DNA from: Prosthecobacter sp.
GTDB lineage: Bacteria; Verrucomicrobiota; Verrucomicrobiia; Verrucomicrobiales; Verrucomicrobiaceae
Assembly (NCBI GenBank): GCA_030827515.1
Contig: JAUREI010000011.1
Span: 1-43,900 of the forward strand
Direction of reading: 5' to 3'
Length of the DNA stretch: 43,900 bases
How positions within the stretch are numbered: position 1 is the stretch's first letter; every line of letters starts with the position of its first letter. The position numbers were made by a program, and so were the translations under genes. Below are positions 9,170-18,866 of this stretch, piece after piece. The notes under the pieces are model-generated. The model was not told where the DNA came from. It did not search any database and was given only the letters and a program-made list of their open reading frames with translations.

Positions 9170-10633
9170 TCAGCCGAGCACCTTGCGGCGGACGATCTCG
9201 GTCACCATTTTCGGGTTGGCCTTGCCCTGGCTGGCCTTCATCGCCTGGCCGGTGAACCAGTTCATCGCCTTGTCGTTGCCGCCCTTGACCTCGGCGACCT
9301 TGTCCGGGTTCGCGGCAAGGATCTGGTCGACGATCGCCTCAAGGGCGCCGCTGTCGCTGACCTGCTCAAAGCCCTTCGATTTGATGATGGCGGCCGGTTC
9401 GGCACCACTGGCCATCATCTCGGCAAACACTTCCTTCGCCTGGCTGTTGGAAATCTTGCCGGCCTCGACGGCGGCGGCCAAGGCGCTGAGTTGGGCCGGT
9501 TGCACCGCGCAGGCGGCGAGGCCGCCCTCGGTGTCCTTGAGCGCTCCGAGCAGGTCGTTGATGACCCAGTTGGCAACCTTCTTCGCCGGCACGGCGGGAT
9601 CGGCGCCAACCGCGGCTTCATACCAGGCGGCGAGCTGCTTGTCGCTGGCGAGCACACCGGCGTCGTAGGCGCTGCAACCATACTCGCTTTCGAAGCGGGA
9701 GCGCTTTTCGTGGGGCAACTCGGGCACCAGCGGGCGCACGCGCGCAACGATGTCGGGCGTGCGCAGCGGCAGCAGGTCGGGATCGGGGAAGTAGCGGTAG
9801 TCGTGCGCATCCTCCTTGGTGCGCATGAGCGTGGTCTCGCCGCGGTCGTCGTCCCAGCGGCGCGTGCTCTGGATGAGCTTTTCGCCGCGTTCCAGGCAGT
9901 CGATCTGGCGCTCCGACTCGAACTTGATGGCGCGGCGCACGGCCGACATCGAATTGAGGTTCTTCAACTCGATCTTGGCACCGAGCTGCTCCTGACCCTC
10001 GGGGCGGACCGAGATGTTGACGTCGCAGCGCATCTGCCCCTTCTCCATGTCGGCATCGCTGACGCCGCCATAAACAAGGATCTGGCGCAGGCTGGTCAGG
10101 TAGGCGAAGGCCTCCTCGGCGCTGGCGAGGTCGGGTTCGCTGACGATCTCCATGAGCGGCGTGCCGGCGCGGTTGAAGTCGATCGTCGTGAACTTGTCGT
10201 GGTGGGTGCTTTTGGCGACGTCCTCCTCCAGGTGGATGCGGGTCAGCTGGACGATCTTGCCGGGGTTGGCGATGCTCTTCTGCGCGTCCTTCGGATAGGC
10301 CAGATCATAGAGCGGCACACCGCCCTCGAGGCAGAGCGGCAGGTCGAACTGGGTGATCTGGTAGTTCTTCGGCATGTCCGGATAGAAGTAGTTCTTGCGG
10401 TCCCACTTCACGACCGGAGGGATCGAGCAGCCAAGCATGAGGCCGGTGAGGATCGTCTTCTCGATGGCAGCCTCGTTGAGCACCGGCAGGGCACCGGGCA
10501 GGCCGAGGCAGGTCGGGCAGGTCAGCGTGTTTGGCTCCTCGCCATAGGCCACCGCGCAGCCGCAGAACATCTTGCTGCGGGTGGTGAGCTGGGCGTGAAC
10601 TTCGAGGCCGATGGTGACGATGTACTTGGGCAT
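9170..10633 (-). CDS. gatB: Asp-tRNA(Asn)/Glu-tRNA(Gln) amidotransferase subunit B
   Basis: GatB binds the misacylated tRNA and, with GatA and GatC, converts Glu-tRNA(Gln) or Asp-tRNA(Asn) to the amide form. The protein (487 aa) starts MPKYIVTIGLEVHAQL, followed by CPTCLGLPGALPVLN, YFYPDMPKNYQITQ, the GAKIELKNLNSM block and EDAHDYRYFPDPDL. A YqeY-like C-terminal domain (about 330-487) carries the ISNSQAKEVF stretch. The ATG at 10633 is preferred over one at 10645, which would overlap the likely -10 box. gatA and gatC are not in the window. Confidence 0.97.
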   Translation of the reverse strand: MPKYIVTIGLEVHAQLTTRSKMFCGCAVAYGEEPNTLTCPTCLGLPGALPVLNEAAIEKTILTGLMLGCSIPPVVKWDRKNYFYPDMPKNYQITQFDLPLCLEGGVPLYDLAYPKDAQKSIANPGKIVQLTRIHLEEDVAKSTHHDKFTTIDFNRAGTPLMEIVSEPDLASAEEAFAYLTSLRQILVYGGVSDADMEKGQMRCDVNISVRPEGQEQLGAKIELKNLNSMSAVRRAIKFESERQIDCLERGEKLIQSTRRWDDDRGETTLMRTKEDAHDYRYFPDPDLLPLRTPDIVARVRPLVPELPHEKRSRFESEYGCSAYDAGVLASDKQLAAWYEAAVGADPAVPAKKVANWVINDLLGALKDTEGGLAACAVQPAQLSALAAAVEAGKISNSQAKEVFAEMMASGAEPAAIIKSKGFEQVSDSGALEAIVDQILAANPDKVAEVKGGNDKAMNWFTGQAMKASQGKANPKMVTEIVRRKVLG

Positions 10634-10643
10634 GACGAAGCTC

Positions 10644-10673
10644 ATCCGAAGCGCCGACTCGGGCCCGATGCAA
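10644..10673 (-). promoter_or_regulatory. Putative gatB promoter
   Basis: Minus strand TTGCAT (10673-10668), 18-nt spacer, TCGGAT (10649-10644), 10 nt before the ATG. The -10 box is weak. Confidence 0.35.
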
Positions 10674-10686
10674 GGGCGAAGGTGCC

Positions 10687-10763
10687 GGGGGCTGTGACCC
10701 CGTGGATTTTCGCGGGTCATTGCCCCGCGCTGCGGAAGACGGCGGGTCACAGCCTCGCGCTAC
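10687..10763. repeat. Composite intergenic palindrome, copy A of a REP-like family
   Basis: The core 10687-10735 matches 14301-14350 at about 85% identity by eye (shared GTGACCCCGTGG, CGGGTC and TGCCCCGC). An extra arm gives a perfect 11-bp stem GGCTGTGACCC (10690-10700) / GGGTCACAGCC (10744-10754). It fills the gap between gatB and the HAD phosphatase, and its right end contains that gene's TAG stop codon (10760-10762). Confidence 0.75.
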
Positions 10764-11308
10764 TGGGTCAAGGGTGGCAGCTCGGCGGCAAGCAGGGTGG
10801 CCAGGCCGGTGGTGTCGGGCAGGTGGTGCGTGGCGACCGCTGCGCAGGGCGGTTCGTCGCCGATGCGCACGGTGTGCGGGACGCCGGCGTGACGGGCCAT
10901 GAGGATGTCGCGATCGGCGTCGCCGACGAGCCAGCTGCGACCCAGATCGAGATGGAGGTCGGCCGCGGCGCGCTGAAGCATCTCGGGACTCGGCTTGCGG
11001 CAGGTGCAGTCCGGATCGCTGGCCAGGCAGGTGCAGGCATACAGCCCGTCAAAGGCGGCACCGTCGGCGGCGAGCCGCTCCTGCATGCGCGCATGGATGT
11101 CGTCCAGGTCGGTCTGGCTCATCAGGCCCTTGCCCACTCCCTGCTGGCTGGTCGCCAGCACCAGGGCGTAGCCTGCCTCGCGACAGACCCGCAGGGCTTC
11201 GACGATGCCCGGGGCAAACTCGAAGTCCGCCCAGCGCAGCACGTAGCCGGCACCGGGCGAGACGTTGACGACGCCGTCGCGATCGAAGAACACGGCGGGC
11301 CGGCTCAT
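10760..11308 (-). CDS. HAD-IIIA phosphatase (GmhB/HisB-N type), coupled to ribD
   Basis: A magnesium-dependent phosphatase of the haloacid dehalogenase superfamily, 182 aa. The catalytic motif I FFDRDGVVN lies at residues 8-16, motif II is SQQGVGKG, and motif IV is VGDADRDILMA. A zinc-loop-like Cys cluster C-x-C-x6-C-x-C-RKP has the short spacing of the HisB N-terminal domain rather than the longer GmhB loop, with Cys replacing the usual His. Start ATG 11308 overlaps the ribD stop by 4 nt (ATGA), which implies translational coupling. Possible substrates are D,D-heptose 1,7-bisphosphate, histidinol phosphate or, given the coupling, the phosphorylated pyrimidine product of RibD. The sequence alone does not decide. 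Confidence 0.87.
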   Translation of the reverse strand: MSRPAVFFDRDGVVNVSPGAGYVLRWADFEFAPGIVEALRVCREAGYALVLATSQQGVGKGLMSQTDLDDIHARMQERLAADGAAFDGLYACTCLASDPDCTCRKPSPEMLQRAAADLHLDLGRSWLVGDADRDILMARHAGVPHTVRIGDEPPCAAVATHHLPDTTGLATLLAAELPPLTQ

Positions 11309-12366
11309 GGTTCGCCCTCCGTTGCATCGGCCCAGACCGGGCGGGCGGTCAGGCACAGGTTGTCGCCCAGCGCTTCCACATGGACGTCAGCCAGCCCCAC
11401 CGAGGCCGCCCAAGGCTCGGTCCCGAGGGCGGGGGTGGTGCCGGCCCCACACAGGCGCGGGGCGAGATACCAGTGCACCTCGTCGACCAGCCGCCGGGCA
11501 AAGGCCTGGCCAAGAACCTGACCGCCGCCTTCAATCAGAACAGTGGTGACGCCACGCCTGCCGAGTTCGAGCAGGGCGGTGCGCAGGTCGGGGCCGGGCA
11601 GGATAAGAGTGCGTTCCCGGTGGGCATCGGTGAACAGGCGGGCGGTCGCCGGCAGTTGGCCGCTGCGGCTGAGTACCACCCGCCAGGGCTGTGGTCGGTC
11701 GGAGTCGGCACTGTCGCGGAGCGTGAGTTGTGGGTCGTCCTGGCGGACGGTTTCGGCGCCGACCAGAATGGCGTCGACGCGACGCCGGAGTGAACGGCCG
11801 TGGGCGCGTGCGGCTTCGCTGGTCAGCCAGGGGCCTTCGCCGGCTGGCCGGGTGAGGCGGCCGTCGAGGCTGGTGGCGGCCTTGGCGATGACCCAGGGCA
11901 GCCCGGTGGTGATCCATTTGGCAAACGGTCGAATCAAGGCGGTGCACTCCGCTTCCAGCACGCCGGTGGTGACGGACAGGCCGGCGTCGCGCAGCAGGGT
12001 TTCAGCCCGGCCGGCGTGCCCGGGGTTTGGATCGCGGGCGCCCCAGACGACACGACCCAGACCGGCGGCGATCAGGGCCTCGGTGCAGGGGCCGGTGCGG
12101 CCATGCGTGGAACAGGGTTCGAGGGTGACGTAGATCGTCGCTCCGCGCAGGCGCTGCGGGTGGCGGGCGGCGGCGTCGCGCAGGGCCTCAATTTCGGCAT
12201 GCGGTTTGCCGGCGCGCTGATGCCAGCCTTGGCCGAGCCGTTCGCCATCGGCGACCACGACCGCGCCCACCGGAGGGTTGGGGCTGGTCAGGCCAACACC
12301 GCGCCGGCCCTGCTCGAGCGCCAGGCGCATCCAGCGGGCGTCGTCGGATTCGGCGGCGGCGGACAT
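11305..12366 (-). CDS. ribD: Bifunctional riboflavin deaminase/reductase
   Basis: RibD deaminates 2,5-diamino-6-ribosylamino-pyrimidinone 5'-phosphate and then reduces the ribosyl chain with NADPH. The N-terminal deaminase domain (about 8-150) has SPNPPVGAVVV, the zinc site HAEIEAL and PCSTHGRTGPCTEAL. The C-terminal reductase domain (about 155-345) has KAATSLDGRL, ILVGAETVRQDDPQLTLR and TVLIEGGG. Length 353 aa is normal. It has a good promoter (TTGCAC-17-TATCGA) with a 5-nt gap to the ATG, leaving no room for an FMN riboswitch. It is followed, in 4-nt overlap, by a HAD phosphatase. Confidence 0.96.
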   Translation of the reverse strand: MSAAAESDDARWMRLALEQGRRGVGLTSPNPPVGAVVVADGERLGQGWHQRAGKPHAEIEALRDAAARHPQRLRGATIYVTLEPCSTHGRTGPCTEALIAAGLGRVVWGARDPNPGHAGRAETLLRDAGLSVTTGVLEAECTALIRPFAKWITTGLPWVIAKAATSLDGRLTRPAGEGPWLTSEAARAHGRSLRRRVDAILVGAETVRQDDPQLTLRDSADSDRPQPWRVVLSRSGQLPATARLFTDAHRERTLILPGPDLRTALLELGRRGVTTVLIEGGGQVLGQAFARRLVDEVHWYLAPRLCGAGTTPALGTEPWAASVGLADVHVEALGDNLCLTARPVWADATEGEP

Positions 12367-16293: not shown

Positions 16294-16584
16294 TCAGCGC
16301 CGGACGATGATTTCGTCGACCTCGATGACCCGGGCTTCGCCCGGCGGGGTCGGTTCGGCGGGGGCGGGCGTTGGCGGTTGGGGGCGCGGCAGGCGGGCGC
16401 GCACGGCGTAGACCACGGCCGCCACGGCGGAGGCAATCAGGCCGACGGCGGCCACAAACGCGCCGAGGAAGACCAGCAAAGACACCAGGATGGCGGCCAG
16501 CAGCAGGCCCGCCAGCAGACGCAGGACGGTCCGCCAGCCGGCGCGGCGCGGCGCGGAGGCCCCATGCAGGACGTAGATGGGCAT
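16294..16584 (-). CDS. Small membrane protein divergent from lpxC
   Basis: A 96-aa protein with a short basic N-terminus (MPIYVLHGASAPRRAGWR) and one long or two tightly packed hydrophobic helices (about 19-60). A Pro-rich linker (PRPQPPTPAPAEPTPP) and an acidic-basic tail EVDEIIVRR follow. I do not recognise a family. The ATG at 16584 comes 5 nt after a TTGTGG-17-CAATTT promoter. It is transcribed away from lpxC-fabZ, so the two share a 142-bp regulatory region. Larger open frames spanning 16294-17115 run antisense to lpxC and are not credible. Confidence 0.65.
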   Translation of the reverse strand: MPIYVLHGASAPRRAGWRTVLRLLAGLLLAAILVSLLVFLGAFVAAVGLIASAVAAVVYAVRARLPRPQPPTPAPAEPTPPGEARVIEVDEIIVRR

Positions 16585-16589
16585 GTCTG

Positions 16590-16618
16590 AAATTGCCCCG
16601 GAATTGGCTCCTCCACAA
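16590..16618 (-). promoter_or_regulatory. Promoter of the 96-aa membrane protein
   Basis: Minus strand TTGTGG (16618-16613), 17-nt spacer, CAATTT (16595-16590), 5 nt before the ATG. Confidence 0.4.
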
Positions 16619-16687
16619 GGGGCGGGTGCTTCCAAAAACCGTCGAATTCTCCACGCGCCACCACCCCTGTGGGCACCGGATTTTCCT

Positions 16688-16716
16688 TTGACCCCGCTCC
16701 GGCGCGCGGCTACAAC
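16688..16716 (+). promoter_or_regulatory. lpxC-fabZ promoter
   Basis: TTGACC (16688-16693), 17-nt spacer, TACAAC (16711-16716). The ATG at 16727 is 10 nt later, giving at most a very short leader. One of the best promoter matches in the window. Confidence 0.6.
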
Positions 16717-16726
16717 GCCTGCGCCC

Positions 16727-18046
16727 ATGTCTGCTTCCGACCGCCAACACACTCTCGCCAAGGCCGCCTCGATCACCGGCACCTCGCTGCACACCGGCGA
16801 GCAGGTGACCCTGACCCTGCAGCCGGCGCCGGAGAACTTCGGTTTCAAGTTCCGGCGCATGGATCTGGAGGACAAACCGTTCATTCCGGCCCTGGTCGAA
16901 AAGGTCCAGAAGGTTGAGCGTGCCACCACGATCGCCGAGGGCGGCGTCAATGTGCACACGGTCGAGCACGTGATCTCCGCTCTCACCGGCATGGGGGTCG
17001 ACAACGCCATCATTGAGATGGACGCCAACGAGCCGCCGATCGTTGACGGCAGTTCCCAGCCTTTTGTCGAGCTGATCAAGAAGGCCGGCCTGCAGGAGCA
17101 GTCGGAGCCGCGCAAGATCTTCGAGATCCGCGAGCCGATCTACCAGGAGACCCGCGACGGCACCATCCTGACCATCGTGCCCGACAAGAAATTCCGCGTC
17201 AGCTGCACCAATGTCGGCCCCGGCGGTCGTTTCACCCAGTATCTGTCCCTGGAGATCAACCCGGACACCTACGAGAAGGAAATCGCCCCGGCGCGCACCT
17301 TCGTCTATTACGAGGACATCGCCCCGCTCATGGAGAAGGGTCTGATCAAGGGCGGCACCCTGGAGGCCGCGGTCGTCGTGCGCGGCGAGACCCTGCTGTC
17401 CAAGCAGCCGCTGCGTTTCAACGACGAGTTCGTCCGCCACAAGATCCTCGACATCGTCGGCGACCTGATGCTCTCCGGGAAGCGCATCCGCGGTCATGTC
17501 ATCGCCGTGCGCCCGGGCCACGGTCCGAACACGGAGATGGCGCGCGCGGTGGTCGCCCAGTACAACGCCATGCGCGCCATGGTGCCGCCGACGATCAACA
17601 TCCCCAGCGGCGAGGCCGTGCTCGACATCAACGAGGTGATGCGCATCCTGCCGCACCGTTACCCCTTCCTGCTGGTTGACCGCATCGTCGGCTTCGAGGG
17701 CGAGAACAAGTGCACCGGCGTCAAGAACGTCACCATCAACGAGCCCTTCTTCCAGGGTCATTTCCCCGGCCACCCGATCATGCCCGGCGTGCTCCAGCTT
17801 GAGGCCATGGCCCAGGTCGCGAGCATCGTCCTGCTGCGCATGCCCGGCAACCAGGGCAAAATCGGCTACTTCATGAGCGCCAACAACGTCAAGTGGCGCA
17901 AGCCGGTTCTGCCCGGCGACACCCTCGTCATTGAAACCGAGATGCTGAAGGTGAAGCGCAGCATCGCCCAGGCCGCCGGCCGCTGCATCGTCAACGGCCA
18001 GGTGGTGTCCGAGGCCGACCTCATGTTCAGCGTCGTCGACCGCTGA
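16727..18046 (+). CDS. lpxC: LpxC-FabZ fusion: UDP-3-O-acyl-GlcNAc deacetylase / 3-hydroxyacyl-ACP dehydratase
   Basis: A bifunctional enzyme of lipid A and fatty acid synthesis. The LpxC part (about 1-285) has SITGTSLHTGE, the zinc-site HTVEH (His81), HKILDIVGDL (His238, Asp242) and the PGHGPN catalytic His265, matching E. coli numbering. The FabZ part (about 295-439) has LPHRYPFLLVDRI, FFQGHFPGHPIMPGV (catalytic His345) and LEAMAQ (Glu359). The fusion is known in Bacteroidetes and related phyla and in Verrucomicrobia-type genomes. lpxA follows 19 nt downstream, a conserved order. The start at 16727 fits the LpxC N-terminus and the promoter; in-frame sequence further upstream is not conserved-looking. 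Confidence 0.97.
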   Translation: MSASDRQHTLAKAASITGTSLHTGEQVTLTLQPAPENFGFKFRRMDLEDKPFIPALVEKVQKVERATTIAEGGVNVHTVEHVISALTGMGVDNAIIEMDANEPPIVDGSSQPFVELIKKAGLQEQSEPRKIFEIREPIYQETRDGTILTIVPDKKFRVSCTNVGPGGRFTQYLSLEINPDTYEKEIAPARTFVYYEDIAPLMEKGLIKGGTLEAAVVVRGETLLSKQPLRFNDEFVRHKILDIVGDLMLSGKRIRGHVIAVRPGHGPNTEMARAVVAQYNAMRAMVPPTINIPSGEAVLDINEVMRILPHRYPFLLVDRIVGFEGENKCTGVKNVTINEPFFQGHFPGHPIMPGVLQLEAMAQVASIVLLRMPGNQGKIGYFMSANNVKWRKPVLPGDTLVIETEMLKVKRSIAQAAGRCIVNGQVVSEADLMFSVVDR

Positions 18047-18065: not shown

Positions 18066-18866
18066 GTGAATTCGATCCATCCCACCGCCCTCATCGATCC
18101 CTCGGCCCGCCTCGGCGACGGTGTCACGGTCGGCCCCTACTGCATCGTCGGCGCCCAGGTCGAGCTCGGCGACGGCTGCCATCTGCAGCATCACGTGACA
18201 ATCCTGGGCCCCTCCAGGATCGGCCGCGACAACCAGTTCTACGCCTACACCTCGATCGGCCAGCAGACCCAGGACCTGAAGTATCACGGCGAGCCGACCT
18301 GGCTCGAGGTGGGCGACGGCAACACCTTCCGCGAGTTCTGCACCGTTCATCGCGCGACGAGCCCGGGCGACAAGACGATCATCGGCAGCCACAACCATTT
18401 CCTGTCCTACGTCCACATCGCCCACGACTGCATCGTCGGCAATCACGTCATCTTTTCCAACAACGGCACCCTCGCCGGCCATGTGACCGTCGAGGACCAC
18501 GTCATCCTCGGCGGCCTCAGCGCCGTCCACCAGTTCTGCCGGATCGGCACCCGCGCCATCATCGGCGGCTGCTCGAAGGTCGTCCAGGACGTGCCGCCGT
18601 TCTGCACCGCCGACGGCAACCCGGCGCGCGCCCGCGGCCTCAACCTGGTCGGCCTGCAGCGCGCCGGTTTCAGCCGCGACCAAATCCGCGCCCTGCGGCA
18701 GGCGTTCCGCAAGGTCTACCGCAGCGGCCTCAACAACGCCCAGGCGGTCGAGGAACTGCGTGCCGGCGAACTGACGCCCGAGGCGGCCGTCTTCACGGAT
18801 TTCGTCGCCACGACCAAGCGCGGCATCATTGTCGGTGGCAAAAATGCCGCGGATGGGGAAGACTGA
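18066..18866 (+). CDS. lpxA: UDP-N-acetylglucosamine acyltransferase
   Basis: Transfers a 3-hydroxyacyl chain from ACP to UDP-GlcNAc, the first step of lipid A synthesis. The 266-aa protein starts at a GTG (18066) with NSIHPTALIDPSARLGDGV. Hexapeptide repeats of a left-handed beta helix run to about residue 190, including the catalytic region HNHFLSYVHIAHDCIVGNHV. The C-terminal helical domain starts near GLNLVGLQRAGFS. It sits 19 nt after lpxC-fabZ and is surely cotranscribed, so acyl-ACP supply and the first two lipid A steps are coupled. Confidence 0.97.
   Translation: MNSIHPTALIDPSARLGDGVTVGPYCIVGAQVELGDGCHLQHHVTILGPSRIGRDNQFYAYTSIGQQTQDLKYHGEPTWLEVGDGNTFREFCTVHRATSPGDKTIIGSHNHFLSYVHIAHDCIVGNHVIFSNNGTLAGHVTVEDHVILGGLSAVHQFCRIGTRAIIGGCSKVVQDVPPFCTADGNPARARGLNLVGLQRAGFSRDQIRALRQAFRKVYRSGLNNAQAVEELRAGELTPEAAVFTDFVATTKRGIIVGGKNAADGED

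Follow-up and report, generated by a model that had tools for sequence, protein, structure and literature searches.

A HAD-IIIA phosphatase gene overlapping ribD in Prosthecobacter and its probable role in ADP-heptose synthesis

Introduction

In the synthesis of ADP-heptose, the phosphatase GmhB acts between HldA and HldC on D-glycero-D-manno-heptose 1,7-bisphosphate. In a genome of Prosthecobacter sp. (order Verrucomicrobiales), a phosphatase gene of the HAD superfamily overlaps the end of ribD, and a first-pass annotation of this DNA had proposed the product as the missing phosphatase of riboflavin synthesis. The locus raises the question of which of the two pathways, or both, this enzyme serves.

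According to the available text of a 2025 paper (PMC12051542), the riboflavin phosphatase was the one unannotated step of its pathway until the Aquifex enzyme of that same paper. At this step, B. subtilis, E. coli (YigB and others) and Arabidopsis are reported to use phosphatases that are HAD proteins like the enzyme considered here and are termed nonspecific in that text, and the riboflavin-step enzymes of Aquifex are an IMP and a histidine-family phosphatase, neither of them HAD. The available text of PMC9302095 describes E. coli GmhB as partly redundant. In a literature search with most subscription literature outside its coverage, no RibD-GmhB link and no ribD-coupled HAD-IIIA phosphatase was found; the terms "gmhb", "heptose" and "purn" are absent from the main text, as available, of PMC4921024, which compiles riboflavin gene fusions.

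Results

The ribD-phosphatase locus

The window, i.e. the whole stretch of 43,900 nucleotides analysed, belongs to a genome of 4.05 Mb in 315 contigs (96.25% complete; G000). The features of the locus are as follows.

11305..12366, minus strand: ribD, bifunctional deaminase/reductase, 353 aa (TIGR00326 297.3 bits, cut-off 156.35; PF00383 and PF01872)
11305..11308, minus strand: ATGA, shared by the ribD stop and the phosphatase start (sequence)
10760..11308, minus strand: HAD-IIIA phosphatase of GmhB/HisB-N type, 182 aa (TIGR01656 132.7, cut-off 84.15; E. coli GmhB is the nearest solved structure by sequence and fold)
11276..11284, minus strand: HAD motif I, D9-R10-D11 (invariant in a 22-row alignment)
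11150..11152, minus strand: HAD motif II, T53, in TSQQGVGKG (invariant in the same alignment)
11000..11035, minus strand: metal loop CTCLASDPDCTC, C-x-C-x6-C-x-C, residues 92-103 (from the translation; varies or is lost in relatives)
10994..10996, minus strand: HAD motif III, K105, in CRKP (invariant in the same alignment)
10907..10924, minus strand: HAD motif IV, G129-D130 ... D134 (invariant in the same alignment)
9170..10750, minus strand: gatB, next same-strand gene downstream of the phosphatase, context (NF004012 611.5 bits, cut-off 338; the true start is probably within the reading frame)

The ATG of the phosphatase gene sits inside the 3' end of ribD, and the length of 182 aa is counted from that ATG. 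Sequence and translation bore out the 4-nt ATGA overlap described in the first-pass annotation, which was also right in stating that neither a heptose nor a histidine gene borders the pair, whose neighbours are GatB, a GspF-like gene scoring below cut-off and TrpC. Genes for lipid A synthesis, a fused LpxC-FabZ (16577-18046) followed by LpxA (18066-18866), are also present in the window, about 4-6 kb from the pair.

Family, motifs and predicted fold

The assignment to HAD-IIIA holds, the product scoring 101.7 with TIGR01662 (cut-off 44.6) besides the 132.7 with TIGR01656 given above, and the catalytic residues D9, D11, T53, K105, D130 and D134 are unchanged across the 22 alignment rows. The scores with both GmhB profiles are below the cut-offs (NF006506, 133.6 against 178; TIGR00213, 112.8 against 149.6), so the protein was not classed among the GmhB equivalogs and the claim made here is that it works like GmhB. 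For comparison, the HAD of the Akkermansia type in L091, located behind hldE and gmhA, scores 152.7 and 154.2, respectively, and passes TIGR00213 alone.

Among solved structures, the closest by sequence is E. coli GmhB (E 3.4e-24), with HisB-N nearly as close (3.5e-22). An AlphaFold2 model (mean pLDDT 95.5) gave in the fold search E. coli GmhB (TM 0.87), B. bronchiseptica GmhB (0.82) and a putative Mesorhizobium phosphatase (0.81), followed at lower ranks by HisB-N (0.70) and B. thailandensis GmhB, 4pnh (0.66). The predicted structure speaks to the fold and not to the substrate. With the GmhB proteins (2gmw/3l8e of E. coli, 3l8h of B. bronchiseptica and 4pnh) the window phosphatase shares the HAD-IIIA class, the catalytic HAD motifs and the nearest fold. 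It differs from them in the motif II region, which reads TNQSGIxRG in GmhB and TSQQGVGKG here, in the metal loop, which carries Cys where GmhB has His and lacks its ligands in several relatives of the window phosphatase, and in being coupled to ribD with scores under the curated GmhB cut-offs.

The loop pattern C-x-C-x6-C-x-C is as first described. Its length had been raised as an argument against a heptose phosphatase, and this argument fails, since 4pnh, deposited under the name D,D-heptose 1,7-bisphosphate phosphatase, has a loop just as short (C-x-H-x5-C-x-C in the alignment); a short loop is therefore no mark against GmhB. The loop varies even inside the ribD-linked clade and is lost in the fused proteins, and none of the four ligand residues remains in groups such as f6 and g11. 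Loop length was accordingly rejected as a marker of specificity. The motif TNQQGVGKG was likewise rejected as a marker of the ribD-linked group, because Bacteroidota homologues beside gmhA-like genes have it.

The closeness of HisB-N suggests another reading, in which the enzyme would act on histidinol phosphate or on some other sugar phosphate, alone or as an extra role. The HisB N-terminal histidinol-phosphatase (2fpr) belongs to the same TIGR01656 domain family, also has a short metal loop and is almost as close by sequence as GmhB; for Chlorobi, the available text of PMC8305728 speculates on a GmhB that acts in the heptose and the histidine pathways alike. The search for a separate gmhB or hisB, as suggested by the first-pass annotation, gave no second HAD-IIIA match in the window genome, hence no HisB-N, and HisN is matched weakly (134.4 against a cut-off of 275.15), these two being the histidinol-phosphatase types covered. 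A role on other sugar phosphates would agree with the g11 proteins that join the HAD to a DUF2064/TIGR04282 domain (see below). Against this reading, the hisB_Nterm profile TIGR01261 scores 75.1 at a cut-off of 140, the fold search placed HisB-N behind the GmhB proteins of E. coli and B. bronchiseptica, and, unlike 2fpr, the window protein carries no dehydratase fusion. On balance we consider this reading improbable.

Linkage to ribD across the Verrucomicrobiales

Both the HAD (E <= 1e-10) and ribD were searched for in one set of 141 Verrucomicrobiales genomes. The HAD was matched in 114 genomes, and ribD in all 141, in 139 of them over the cut-off. Family f2 (41 genomes), apparently that of the Akkermansia-type genomes, is often set apart from the counts below; f1 is the label of the window's own family in these tables. 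Outside f2, the HAD is present in 93 of 100 genomes.

The conservation of the pair, which had been left to be checked, was evident: in 57 of these 93 genomes the HAD follows ribD on the same strand (33/42 in f1, 12/36 in f3, 9/11 in f4, 0/1 in f5 and 3/3 in f6). The two are tightly spaced or fused in 49 of the 57, and 0.45-1.44 kb separates the matched parts in the other 8. An in-frame start codon with an overlap of exactly 4 nt was found at 31 of 55 linked unfused loci, a few genomes being counted twice. The arrangement is not a product of chance. The remaining 36 HAD genes were not seen linked to ribD, some of them near contig ends; in G044 it is ribD that lies at a contig end.

RibD and the HAD form a single reading frame in four genomes, G006 (591 aa), G009 (581 aa) and G014 (557 aa), all of f6, and G121 (529 aa) of f3; profiles confirmed the fused domains in G006 and G121. 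Sequencing error is unlikely for the f6 fusions, because they come from three different assemblies, while the single case of G121 could be one. The f6 fusions keep the catalytic residues in the alignment, and no other strong HAD-IIIA match was found in those genomes, leaving the fused domain as their sole HAD-IIIA candidate for GmhB.

When 137 HAD rows were placed in a tree, the ribD-linked sequences fell, together with close relatives from the Verrucomicrobiales, into one group of 76, whose support of 94/94 is slightly short of the strict mark. On this tree, 11 changes were required for the label "adjacent", which permits ribD-HAD gaps up to 1.6 kb, and 2, of which the starred branches force only 1, for the label "fused". 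By parsimony, the link to ribD would be old and repeatedly lost. The sister group of the window phosphatase includes a Prosthecobacter record. The MAG record CAMCWM010000085.1 (L109), titled Akkermansia muciniphila, has its genes at the same places as G125:C85 of the window's genus, appears to be identical with it and is probably mislabelled.

The wide spread of the link and the four in-frame fusions favour a functional tie between the two proteins, and such a tie could take two forms. In the first, one phosphatase would serve two pathways, a GmhB that also dephosphorylates the RibD product 5-amino-6-ribitylamino-uracil 5'-phosphate. This would explain why the HAD stays coupled or fused to RibD, and the HADs of the riboflavin step elsewhere are called nonspecific (PMC12051542, in its available text); genomes without the link or the gene would use other promiscuous phosphatases for riboflavin. 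In the second, the enzyme would be a dedicated riboflavin phosphatase, the heptose step being left to another, unrecognised enzyme. The ATGA overlap, the gene order with ribD conserved in f1, f3, f4 and f6, the 57 linked genomes among 93 and the four fusions all agree with the latter.

Co-occurrence with gmhA

The distribution of the HAD follows the heptose gene gmhA and not the riboflavin gene ribD. Among all 141 genomes, 107 had both HAD and gmhA, 7 the HAD alone, 1 gmhA alone and 26 neither (Fisher p 7e-21); the corresponding numbers were 87, 6, 1 and 6 outside f2 (p 5e-6) and 77, 1, 1 and 4 outside f2 at a completeness of at least 90% (p 1e-5), common descent being ignored in all three tests. 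Genomes unnamed in the match tables (7 for HAD, 13 for gmhA) were taken to be the handles missing from those tables. The genomes with the HAD alone were G005, G014, G028, G036, G059, G067 and G130. In G136, the only genome with gmhA alone, no ribD match reached the cut-off either, which makes an assembly gap probable. The agreement with the HAD is looser for HldC than for gmhA: no HldC match at 1e-10 was obtained in G028, G055, G071 and G124, four HAD-bearing genomes outside f2.

For ribD, 27 of the 141 genomes have no HAD at 1e-10 and 26 of these 27 have ribD over the cut-off, so that the HAD is not present wherever the riboflavin pathway would need it; a lineage-specific riboflavin phosphatase, however, need not be present wherever ribD is. 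This pattern speaks against a dedicated riboflavin phosphatase, as do the closeness of GmhB by fold and sequence and the heptose genes of the window genome, which has no other HAD-IIIA match. It also bears on the two-pathway explanation: ribD occurs without a HAD match in 20 of the 41 f2 genomes and in 6 elsewhere, and 36 of the 93 HAD genes outside f2 were not seen linked, some near contig ends. Because genomes with ribD and without the HAD, or without a visible link, are so many, the coupling must be dispensable.

The six genomes outside f2 without both HAD and gmhA come from g11 and g17, in which the HAD was not seen linked to ribD, and from g22, in which its former place is unclear; they provide no direct test of the ribD-linked form. 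Three of the six still show pathway matches, for the hldA-type gene and HldC in G048 (75% complete) and G058 (92%), and for HldC in G138 (79%), indicating that the heptose set was not cleanly lost in every case. In the other three, G012, G027 and G112, hldA was unmatched at 1e-30 and HldC was not matched strongly. Three Akkermansia-type genomes were checked; their HAD falls on a different branch of the tree and lies behind hldE and gmhA.

Among the linked genomes, 52 of 57 have gmhA. The five without it are G014 (82% complete), G028 (86%), G036 (86%), G059 (87%) and G130 (95%), and a heptose kinase was matched in G036, G059 and G130, with no match in G014 and G028. In G028 no hldA, HldC or TIGR00441 match was detected, and yet the ribD-linked HAD is kept. 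With no ADP-heptose genes recognisable, G028 makes the strongest individual argument for a riboflavin role, although 14% of it is missing and a gap may be the cause. A separate GDP-heptose-like cluster of G028 (L210, G028:C22) contains a GHMP-type kinase, a nucleotidyltransferase, an SIS isomerase and its own HAD, the roles being assigned partly by eye.

Heptose genes in the window genome and the HldC-PurN fusion

The window genome carries an hldA-type gene (rfaE_dom_I, C302:13164-14117; 343.3 bits against a cut-off of 345), 6 nt downstream of it a gmhA-like gene (TIGR00441, 178.5 against 209.45), HldC (rfaE domain II) on C277 (177.5-180.5 bits against 181.5) and three matches to Glyco_transf_9, the heptosyltransferase family. 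The pairing of hldA with gmhA supports these matches, of which gmhA is clearly under its cut-off. No second HAD-IIIA match was found in this genome (96.25% complete), the window gene being the only one. The first-pass annotation had itself named a complete heptose pathway without any other gmhB candidate as evidence against its proposal, and this is essentially what the genome contains, with hldA, HldC and gmhA, the pathway genes covered by the search, all below their cut-offs. One partial match to PF08282 was also detected, which speaks neither for nor against another riboflavin phosphatase in this genome. We take this profile to represent Cof-type HADs, the kind of YbjI and YcsE; these two and YigB presumably belong to other HAD subgroups than the window phosphatase.

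Fusion of two genes is normally taken to speak for a shared pathway. In the window genome, HldC is fused in frame to PurN (L182:3519-4868, G000:C277), both domains being confirmed by profiles, and the same fusion was found in 12 of 12 non-Akkermansia genomes checked, i.e. the window genome and 11 of 11 others (L203-L209, L211, L212, L217 and L218). The joining of a heptose enzyme to a partner without obvious pathway link thus arose here at least once. Since the heptose enzyme HldC is fused to a purine enzyme, the RibD-HAD fusion is weaker evidence in this order than it would be elsewhere, and this tells against the dual role as well.

Relatives in other contexts

Genome contigs were scanned for relatives of the HAD, and the best 80 of at least 520 were considered. 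Named records among the relatives include Prosthecobacter, Brevifollis, Verrucomicrobium and Phragmitibacter. In 19 of these 80, all from records titled Verrucomicrobi- or with a genus or MAG name belonging to the order, ribD is in the same locus. Six Bacteroidota relatives (L146, L147, L157, L164, L176 and L177) are located directly behind a gmhA-like gene, which in L147, the only member scanned, scored 206.4 against the cut-off of 209.45; the six join the ribD-linked clade at a weakly supported fork (76/78). Twelve loci, mostly of Kiritimatiellae and Lentisphaerae (L119, L121, L123, L125, L130, L132, L136, L138, L144, L152, L162 and L172), have a neighbour of one cluster, and its scanned member (L125) matches TIGR03790, a family named by number only.

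Some f3 genomes, mainly of g11, encode a protein of 383-419 aa that has a DUF2064/TIGR04282 (CofC-like) domain at the N-terminus and the HAD at the C-terminus (L081, L082, L085-L088, L115-L117, L127 and L128, some from the same genome; profiles run on L081 and L087). These fusions often adjoin a metallophosphoesterase gene and a clpX-like gene, the latter recognised by eye; the close relatives L083, L084 and L131 are without the DUF2064 fusion. Fusions of the HddC-GmhB type (L093 and L094), like RibD-HAD, join a HAD-IIIA domain to another enzyme in the same order; they differ in the motif TNQPVIARG, in the nucleotidyltransferase-like partner (by eye) and in their separate branch of the tree. 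Phylum-wide, the HAD was matched in 175 of 288 genomes at 1e-30, ordinary GmhB proteins included. No relative was found among the candidates from viral contigs. Beside ribD of HAD-less genomes (L183-L189 and L194), no replacement phosphatase was recognised by eye in the first 100 residues of picked reading frames, some of them on the wrong strand.

Discussion

Taking all readings together, the window gene quite probably provides GmhB activity for ADP-heptose synthesis. This most likely assignment is based on the HAD-IIIA family, the catalytic residues, the GmhB-like predicted fold, the heptose genes of the genome, the sole HAD-IIIA match and the co-occurrence with gmhA. The enzyme would remove the 7-phosphate from D-glycero-D-manno-heptose 1,7-bisphosphate between the HldA and HldC steps. 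The proposal of a riboflavin phosphatase stands in one part, as the coupling to ribD is real, widespread and accompanied by fusions, and gives way in the other, as heptose genes are present, no other HAD-IIIA protein is found and the HAD tracks gmhA rather than ribD.

The best single explanation, which we put a little short of an even chance, is a GmhB alone, with a ribD link that would carry no function. The place behind ribD would then be an old arrangement of the Verrucomicrobiales that may give translational coupling, a shared pathway not being required. Points against a GmhB alone are the scores below the GmhB and gmhA cut-offs, the rank of 4pnh below HisB-N, the old and widespread link to ribD, the fusions, and the genomes G028, G014 and G130.

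A GmhB with a second role in riboflavin synthesis would account for both the association with gmhA and the link to ribD with its fusions, and the f6 proteins, with catalytic residues kept in their sole HAD-IIIA candidate for GmhB, agree with it. Given the dispensable coupling and the precedent of HldC-PurN, we regard this explanation as possible and somewhat unlikely. The idea that GmhB might have another biosynthetic task besides its own is not new, having been proposed for histidine in the available text of PMC8305728. The further suggestion that the f6 fusions represent RibD with a built-in phosphatase for the riboflavin step, to which no enzyme is assigned in most bacteria, the same GmhB-type enzyme serving ADP-heptose and riboflavin across the order, has about the same standing. 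A dedicated riboflavin phosphatase, for which G028 is the best argument, appears improbable in view of the distribution of the gene.

In a natural RibD-phosphatase fusion, this order offers a single protein that could settle the question of its riboflavin phosphatase. Should the heptose assignment be true, gene overlap and even fusion with the expected chemistry can mislead as to the pathway, and a table of presence and absence can correct it; the GmhB gap of the window genome would then be filled by a candidate under NCBI's GmhB cut-offs.
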